41,930 nucleotides of DNA, taken from contig JAOAUK010000029.1 in assembly GCA_030157655.1 (NCBI GenBank), positions 19,904 through 61,833 on the forward strand. Reading direction: 5' to 3'. The position numbers were made by a program, and so were the translations under genes. This DNA comes from Polynucleobacter sp. (GTDB taxonomy: Bacteria > Pseudomonadota > Gammaproteobacteria > Burkholderiales > Burkholderiaceae). The notes under the pieces were generated by a model. It did no database searches. It was not told the origin of the DNA and saw only the letters and a list, made by a program, of their open reading frames with translations. Positions 32,218 to 33,767 of the stretch are shown here, in pieces; positions within the stretch are counted from its first letter, which is position 1, and every line of letters begins with the position of its first letter.

Positions 32218-32943
32218 ATGGCAAAACCCCTCACTCTTGAAAAAATCCTCTTTAGCCAAGGCTTTGGCACACGTCGCTATTGCAGCGACTTGGTCTACGC
32301 TGAACTAGTGAAGGTCAATGGCGTCTTAGCAGAAGACCCTGATGAGAAAGTGCCTACTGAGGGCCTTCTTCTGAATGTTGATGGTGAAGATTGGGAATTC
32401 CACGAAAAGGCTTATATCGCCTTTAATAAGCCGACTGGCTATGAGTGCTCTCATAAAACCAGCCACCACCCGAGTATTTACGGTTTATTGCCCCAACCCT
32501 TAGTCGAACGAGGCATTCAGTGTGTTGGCCGCCTAGATTACGACACCACAGGACTGATCCTAATGTCTGATGACGGTCAGTTTATCCACAAAATGACGAC
32601 TCCGAAAAAGAATATCGGAAAAATCTACGACATCACCACAGCAGAAGATTTAACAAATGGCCAAATTGAGCATCTATTAAATGGTGTTGTATTAGATGAC
32701 GACCCAAAGCCCTGCTTTGCCAAAGCTTGCGTGCAACAATCTGAACGCCTGCTATCTATGACTATTGTCGAAGGCCGATATCACCAGGTTAAACGAATGA
32801 TGGCAGCGGTTGGCAATCATGTAGCTGGACTGCACCGCTCTTCTATCGGTGCTTATACGATGCCTACAGACTTGCCAGAAGGCGAATGGTGCTGGCTATA
32901 CCCTGATGATCTAAAACAACTAGGGACCAGCATACAAGACTGA
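32218..32943 (+). CDS. rsuA: 16S rRNA pseudouridine(516) synthase RsuA-type
   Basis: A 241-residue RsuA/RluB-E family pseudouridine synthase. An N-terminal S4 RNA-binding domain (LEKILFSQGFGTRRYCSDLVYAELVKVNGVL) precedes the catalytic domain with GRLDYDTTGLILMSDDGQ (catalytic aspartate) and GRYHQVKRMMAAVGNHVAGLHR. Length and layout suit RsuA, with RluE-type as an alternative. No Shine-Dalgarno; TATACC, part of AGGTATACCT, ends 9 nt before the ATG. Confidence 0.9.
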   Translation: MAKPLTLEKILFSQGFGTRRYCSDLVYAELVKVNGVLAEDPDEKVPTEGLLLNVDGEDWEFHEKAYIAFNKPTGYECSHKTSHHPSIYGLLPQPLVERGIQCVGRLDYDTTGLILMSDDGQFIHKMTTPKKNIGKIYDITTAEDLTNGQIEHLLNGVVLDDDPKPCFAKACVQQSERLLSMTIVEGRYHQVKRMMAAVGNHVAGLHRSSIGAYTMPTDLPEGEWCWLYPDDLKQLGTSIQD

Positions 32944-32958
32944 AAAATTGCTGGTATT

Positions 32959-33000
32959 TTGAGATAAATCAAAGCGCTCACCAGCACTTGCTCCTACAGT
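32959..33000 (+). promoter_or_regulatory. FNR/CRP-type class II promoter before the DUF3149 gene
   Basis: TTGAGATAAATCAA (32959-32972) matches the FNR consensus TTGAT-N4-ATCAA at 9 of 10 bases. TACAGT (32995-33000) fits a -10 box. If transcription starts at 33007, the box is centred exactly at -41.5, the class II activator position, and an 18-nt leader with GGGAG precedes the ATG. The region also forms a hairpin with arms TGCTGGT / ACCAGCA. Confidence 0.6.
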
Positions 33001-33024
33001 TGAGGTATCTACAGGGAGTGAAAA

Positions 33025-33150
33025 ATGTTAAGTGAATTATTTGGTTCTTTTGCAGGTCAATTAAGCCTACTCGTGATCTTGTTCATGATAGTTGCAGGCT
33101 TTACAGCGGTGCGTGTGGTACTCAAGAAAATGTCAGAAACATCTGATTAA
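33025..33150 (+). CDS. 41-aa DUF3149-like membrane microprotein (not in ORF track)
   Basis: Reads MLSELFGSFAGQLSLLVILF, then MIVAGFTAVRVVLKKMSETSD and TAA. It has one membrane helix and a positively charged inner end. The pattern xELFGxxxGxLSLxVIxF fits the DUF3149 family of short membrane proteins with unknown function. GGGAG lies 5 nt before the ATG. The gene lies behind an FNR-type promoter, which suggests induction at low oxygen, and converges on the isochorismatase-like gene. Confidence 0.82.
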   Translation: MLSELFGSFAGQLSLLVILFMIVAGFTAVRVVLKKMSETSD

Positions 33151-33154
33151 GTTA

Positions 33155-33180
33155 TTTGAGCTTATTTCACTAAGCTCAAA
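33155..33180. terminator. Convergent hairpin terminator candidate
   Basis: Perfect 10-bp stem TTTGAGCTTA / TAAGCTCAAA with a six-base loop TTTCAC. It lies between the DUF3149 gene and the end of the isochorismatase-like gene, whose stop codon and last few codons are within it. There is no long T-tract, so efficiency is uncertain. Confidence 0.55.
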
Positions 33181-33767
33181 CCTGCCTTAAATTCTGGGTG
33201 CTCACAAGACCTTAGAAGTTCAAAAATCACCATTTCTGTGGTGACCAATTCAGCACCATTGCCCGCCAAGCGGTCAAATGCTGCATCGCGACTAAGTTCA
33301 GTTCTTGAGCCACAAGCATCCGTGACCACCCACACGTCAAACTCTTCTTCAAGCAAGCCCAACGCTGTTTGCAATAAGCAAACATGGGCTTCACACCCAG
33401 CAATCACAACTGTATTGCGCTCCTCATGACCTTCTTGCTTTCTTTGGATATGCTTAGGCAAACTTCTGGCATTGCCCATCGGTTTAGGTGGTTCTCTTAG
33501 TAACTCCACCAAACCATCTTCGCAAGCGCCAAAATGCATTTTTGGCAAAGTCTTTAAACAAAGACTCTTAATCTCTTGGTCGTTAGATCCCAACTTTTCA
33601 GCATGCTGCTCTGTGCCAAAAATGGGTAGCTTGAGTAGTTTGGCCATTTTTGCCAAACGTCTTGCATTAGCTAATACAGCATCGGCTTGATGGATAGCTG
33701 GCATCAATTTAGCTTGGTAATCAACCAATACCAATTGTGAATCTTCCGCAGATAGCAATATAGACAT
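33162..33767 (-). CDS. Isochorismatase family cysteine hydrolase
   Basis: A 201-residue alpha/beta hydrolase of the isochorismatase-like family. Catalytic residues are visible as the Asp in LVLVDYQAKL (about 16), the Lys in LPKMHFGACED (about 76) and the Cys in VIAGCEAHVCLLQTAL. The overall form resembles YcaC-type hydrolases, so a true isochorismatase role is unlikely; substrate unknown. AGGT upstream supports the ATG. Confidence 0.9.
   Translation of the reverse strand: MSILLSAEDSQLVLVDYQAKLMPAIHQADAVLANARRLAKMAKLLKLPIFGTEQHAEKLGSNDQEIKSLCLKTLPKMHFGACEDGLVELLREPPKPMGNARSLPKHIQRKQEGHEERNTVVIAGCEAHVCLLQTALGLLEEEFDVWVVTDACGSRTELSRDAAFDRLAGNGAELVTTEMVIFELLRSCEHPEFKAGLSLVK

Follow-up and report, generated by a model that had tools for sequence, protein, structure and literature searches.

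In the window, the 41,930-nucleotide stretch of Polynucleobacter DNA analyzed here, an FNR-type class II promoter probably drives a one-helix membrane protein of the DUF3149 family whose likely role is in the cbb3-type cytochrome c oxidase, either as an accessory subunit or in the assembly of the enzyme. The window comes from contig 29 of a 1.33-Mb genome (G000) that is 87% complete. Judging from the layout, the DUF3149 gene with its own promoter is a compact, self-standing transcription unit, which would be monocistronic because the isochorismatase-family gene on its 3′ side is convergent. The elements of the locus are as follows.

32218–32943, + strand: RsuA-like pseudouridine synthase gene, the 5′ neighbor, which stops 16 bp before the box and lies outside the unit
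32959–32972, + strand: FNR-type box TTGAG-ATAA-ATCAA (TTGAGATAAATCAA), centered at 32965.5 (sequence, pattern scan, clade alignment, and conservation in genus and class)
32995–33000, + strand: −10 hexamer TACAGT, with an implied +1 near 33007 (sequence; offset conserved genus- and class-wide)
33007–33024, + strand: predicted 18-nt 5′ leader, placed from the −10 hexamer
33014–33018, + strand: Shine–Dalgarno sequence GGGAG (sequence; G positions largely invariant in the clade)
33025–33150, + strand: DUF3149 (PF11346) one-helix membrane microprotein, 41 aa, with its ATG at 33025
33162–33767, − strand: isochorismatase-family gene, convergent to the DUF3149 gene

The gene order around the DUF3149 gene is shared with named relatives, among them locus L062 of Polynucleobacter sp. 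HJF.22, and this assigns the window to Polynucleobacter. A function deduced from the neighbors in the window (rsuA, the isochorismatase-family gene and acnB) was dropped, as these are not conserved beyond the window's clade.

An earlier note on this DNA, made from the letters alone, had described the product as a 41-aa DUF3149 protein, and this assignment holds: the ORF scores 28.6 bits against the Pfam model (gathering cut-off 23.2), and the AlphaFold prediction is essentially one helix, spanning residues 9–40 with a mean pLDDT of 85. The ORF also matches a genus DUF3149 profile with E 1.9e-22, the window sequence being itself a row of that profile. The hydrophobic stretch covers residues 15–33. 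The protein is probably oriented with its N-terminus out and its C-terminus in, because the positive charges lie on the C-terminal side (RVVLKK), in line with the positive-inside rule. A sampled phylum-wide search found the family only in Gammaproteobacteria, and a plasmid collection yielded no homologue. The PF11346 match in G202/L031 was rejected as false, since it falls within a long membrane protein. The naming of DUF3149 proteins by NCBIfam gave only a spurious match (E = 0.015), and neither DUF3149 nor PF11346 was found to be mentioned among 5.39 million open papers.

Nine of the 10 bases specified by the FNR consensus TTGAT-N4-ATCAA are present in the box, and the pattern scan of the window placed it one mismatch from TTGAYNNNNATCAA. 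The fifth base is G where the consensus has T, and this G5 variant is uniform in the window's clade. When the last base of TACAGT is counted as −7, the predicted start falls at 33007 and the box center lies at −41.5 relative to it; both the nine-base match and the exact spacing, as proposed in the earlier note, were thereby recovered from the sequence, the pattern scan and the coordinates. A good −35 hexamer is absent, in keeping with class II activation. An inverted repeat around the box (GCTGGT...ACCAGC) was discarded as a chance feature, not being conserved in the sister genome G126. Taken alone, a single box is weak evidence, because the window contains 149 boxes with at most two mismatches, against 111 in shuffles. 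On the scale of the genome, where the FNR regulon was sampled by pattern, TTGA-N6-TCAA occurs 97 times in G000, against 34 occurrences of a reversed-pattern control.

Three layers of conservation, in the clade, the genus and the class, settle on comparative grounds that the box exceeds chance. When six genomes of the window's clade are aligned, hardly any column is invariant outside the box, the −10 hexamer, the Shine–Dalgarno sequence and the ATG. A first survey of 27 Polynucleobacter genomes found a box of the TTGA-N6-TCAA type before every DUF3149 gene, with an exception by one base in L023 (a change in the right arm), and in the loci checked the box lies 64–88 bp before the ATG. The gene occupies several different chromosomal places in the genus, with the box kept. 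The offset of the −10 hexamer from the box start is 36 in 17 and 35 in 8 of the 27 distinct promoters in the family/genus set. In the class sample, which comprised 38 DUF3149 loci across the GTDB Gammaproteobacteria (31 stand-alone and 7 operon-linked), 27 of the 31 stand-alone genes are preceded by a box with no more than two mismatches, where dinucleotide shuffles give an expectation of 3.25, and 18 by one with no more than a single mismatch, against 0.33 expected. As a rougher control, 278 other ORFs from the same loci were scanned in the same way; upstream of 38 of them there was a box with two mismatches or fewer, and upstream of 13 one with a single mismatch at most. TAnnnT peaks at offset 36 in the class loci (12/28, with no more than three at any other offset), in the Cupriavidus copies TTGAC/T-N4-CTCAA is followed by TACACT, spaced as in the window, and four independent loci obtained later all had the box. 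The earlier note had named the lack of a conserved box before homologues as grounds for refutation; the box and its −41.5 placement are instead conserved throughout the genus and at most stand-alone genes of the class. The few class members without a box score weakly for DUF3149; among the stand-alone loci of that sample, L150, L158, L161 and L163 had no acceptable box, and L156 had only an off-position match.

Two named MAG loci, L047 and L058, have degenerate sites at best. The former stood outside the 27-genome survey, and its DUF3149 gene lies downstream of a transposase-like gene, which seems to interrupt an OsmC-like gene just upstream (L047:1500-2950). The box at this locus has decayed (TTAATTGCAGTCAA), and the promoter may have been lost naturally. 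Genome G175 has two different DUF3149 copies that lie far apart (L010 and L033), and both are preceded by a box and a −10 hexamer of their own.

Three features of a class II FNR promoter, namely a near-consensus dyad, its placement at −41.5 with a usable −10 hexamer (relative to the predicted start) and a four-cysteine FNR in the genome, are all present. A chance match, that is, a box-like sequence in an intergenic spacer that regulates nothing, would accommodate the many one- and two-mismatch boxes of the window and the departure from T at the fifth base, but the clade-wide invariance of exactly the box and the −10 hexamer, the uniformity of the G5 variant and the recurrence at fixed spacing through the genus, the class and the independent loci reduce its probability to almost nothing. 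Sites of DNR/NnrR regulators are similar to those of FNR, and the box could accordingly be read by another member of the CRP family, either a DNR/NnrR-like NO sensor or a second protein of the genome, in which case the signal would not be oxygen. Only two cNMP-domain proteins were found in G000. One is the FNR (L044), a 251-aa protein with an N-terminal CxxCx5C and one further Cys that scores 228.3 bits, just over the NCBIfam Fnr cut-off of 228, and whose [4Fe-4S] cluster would presumably be oxygen-labile. The other, L127, is a short, unplaced CRP-like protein that gives the alternative regulator a candidate in G000, although it falls far below all regulator cut-offs. The sister genome G126 (92% complete) carries the same box with only FNR among its detected cNMP-domain proteins, and similar boxes stand at the cco operon of G000 and, as TTGATTTGCATCAA, between its fnr and a divergent TauE/SafE-like gene. 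We therefore consider FNR the simplest reader of the box, given the four-Cys FNR in G000 and that L127 was not detected in the box-bearing G126, and regard another regulator as quite improbable; the caveat of the earlier note concerning other CRP-family regulators is weakened to the same extent but keeps a second cNMP-domain protein on its side. L127 itself (L127:1489-2067, 192 aa) is encoded directly before a TonB-receptor-like gene. In beta-proteobacteria, control of the cbb3 regulon by FNR is established, as with the fixNOP promoters of Herbaspirillum (PMC5934665), which resemble the present case except that the target here is an uncharacterised stand-alone microprotein gene.

The box at −41.5 makes the DUF3149 gene a likely FNR target, although it does not name the protein partner. 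The candidate partner emerges from genomic linkage. In seven class loci from five families (L132, L147, L148, L151, L159, L160 and L162), the gene lies in or beside an fnr-ccoNO(Q)P-ccoGH cluster, in the order fnr-ccoNO(Q)P-DUF3149-ccoG-ccoH or near variants, and in five of the seven it stands between ccoP and ccoG; at L152, fnr alone is beside it. The distribution of boxes follows this arrangement. Six of the seven operon-linked genes are without a box of their own, while the ccoN promoters of these loci have one in six cases, that of L160 giving only a two-mismatch match. It appears, then, that DUF3149 genes have their own FNR box when they stand alone and usually none when they lie inside an FNR-controlled operon. 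An uncharacterised membrane protein of ~82–86 aa (WPSFL...GFFLFW) also recurs in fnr-cco clusters beside DUF3149, at −357 in L132, −263 in L159, −271 in L160 and +2240 in L162, and a similar-looking protein occurs near fnr in the window's own genome (L112:371-631).

Co-occurrence points in the same direction. At the genome level, where the statistics count related genomes as independent, ccoN is present in 36/37 DUF3149 genomes and in 156/332 others (p = 2e-10); at the level of families, where the test does not do so, the figures are 26/26 and 79/157 (p = 1e-7). The only DUF3149 genome without a detected ccoN, G480, is 55% complete. By score, class ccoN sequences divide into two groups, one with E below 1e-213 and the other with E from about 1e-180 to 1e-212, and DUF3149 occurs mostly with the first (33/37), three genomes (G290, G331 and G545) having only the lower-scoring type. 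Within Polynucleobacter, ccoN was found in 30/30 DUF3149 genomes, compared with about 118/151 overall (hypergeometric 2e-4). About three quarters of the ccoN-bearing genomes of the genus are without DUF3149, so that the protein is not essential for the cbb3 enzyme and would modulate rather than enable it. The earlier note had suggested an accessory to a respiratory complex; the cco linkage, the ccoN co-occurrence and a negative cytochrome bd control support this and narrow the complex to the cbb3 oxidase. In that control, CydA showed no association with DUF3149 (18/37 DUF3149 genomes versus 151/332, p = 0.42), and a general low-oxygen lifestyle is therefore insufficient as an explanation.

This bears on the alternative that the promoter is indeed FNR-driven but the protein has another micro-oxic membrane function, such as a part in general membrane stress, a redox/sulfur role or service to a different complex under FNR control, its co-occurrence with cbb3 reflecting merely a shared micro-oxic lifestyle. 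FNR regulons include many non-oxidase genes, and in the Polynucleobacter clades beyond the window's own DUF3149 stands next to genes for rhodanese, OsmC-like, thioredoxin and ArsR proteins instead of cco genes. None of the Polynucleobacter loci that were read has DUF3149 within the cco operon, and the fnr and adjoining cco cluster of G000 lie on another contig than the DUF3149 gene, with no physical link. Against this stand the gene's place in the fnr-cco clusters of five families, whether between ccoP and ccoG or at another point, the presence of ccoN in every DUF3149 family and the lack of association with another micro-oxic oxidase, and we judge such a function unlikely. A cbb3 accessory role is preferred because of the position in the fnr-cco clusters and the co-occurrence with ccoN. 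In the other Polynucleobacter clades (L050 and L048, in the region from −2.2 kb up to DUF3149, and L046, L054 and L059), DUF3149 ends a rhodanese/OsmC-like/thioredoxin/ArsR-type island that also includes a small membrane protein, cl11, and a near-FNR box also precedes cl11 in L050 and L048. Locus L053 has two further FNR-type boxes, TTGATTTAAATCAT around −120 from DUF3149, ahead of a divergently oriented thioredoxin gene, and, around +500 and downstream of cl11, a perfect TTGATCTGCATCAA.

Small proteins are a recurring feature of terminal oxidases, and DUF3149 was compared with several of them. CcoS and CcoH are small membrane proteins of the cco cluster that are involved in cbb3 assembly. The cluster of G000, ccoI-ccoS-ccoN-O-Q-P-G, is complete, with ccoS at L166:1329-1532, TTGACCTATATCAA before ccoN and a 59-aa CcoQ between ccoO and ccoP, and DUF3149 is therefore additional to CcoQ, CcoG and CcoS. 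CcoQ (FixQ) is likewise a small one-helix cbb3 component that is FNR-controlled with its operon. The identity of DUF3149 with CcoQ was rejected, since profile comparison revealed no homology (probability 1.5%) and CcoQ is separately encoded in G000. The passage of PMC10433244 that cites Kohlstaedt 2016 gives CcoM as a 36-aa subunit of the Pseudomonas stutzeri cbb3 oxidase, like DUF3149 a small protein tied to that oxidase and to oxygen limitation; DUF3149 is cco-linked in several families, and its profile gave no credible match among PDB chains, a set that included entry 5djq and was compared by profile. CydX of cytochrome bd and CioY, the microprotein of the CioAB terminal oxidase (PMC11955535), are the same kind of thing, terminal-oxidase microprotein subunits, but of a different oxidase, and DUF3149 is without CydA association. 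CcoM, CioY and the small membrane ORFs that occur within oxidase operons of Burkholderia (PMC11742914) illustrate that terminal oxidases attract microproteins.

We propose the following mechanism, in which FNR binding, low-oxygen induction, physical association with the oxidase and the alternative of subunit or assembly factor are all inferred from genomic patterns. As oxygen falls, FNR carrying its [4Fe-4S] cluster would dimerise, bind the box at −41.5 and activate transcription of the DUF3149 gene. The microprotein would be made together with the FNR-controlled cbb3 oxidase, insert in the inner membrane and act on the ccoNOQP enzyme as an accessory subunit or an assembly/stability factor, by analogy with CydX for cytochrome bd and CcoM or CcoQ for other cbb3 enzymes.

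More tentatively, DUF3149 may represent a previously unrecognised family of oxygen-regulated cbb3 subunits in about a tenth of the sampled Gammaproteobacteria, which has repeatedly left the cco operon as a cassette of gene and promoter with its own FNR class II box. If so, some lineages could tune a modified oxidase under low oxygen separately from the core operon. Our analysis suggests that a regulatory footprint, operon position and co-occurrence can together indicate a function where a microprotein is too short for homology. It gives DUF3149, a family without mention in the open papers covered, a concrete and testable function, and the high-affinity cbb3 oxidase, on which many bacteria of low-oxygen habitats draw, gains a candidate small subunit.
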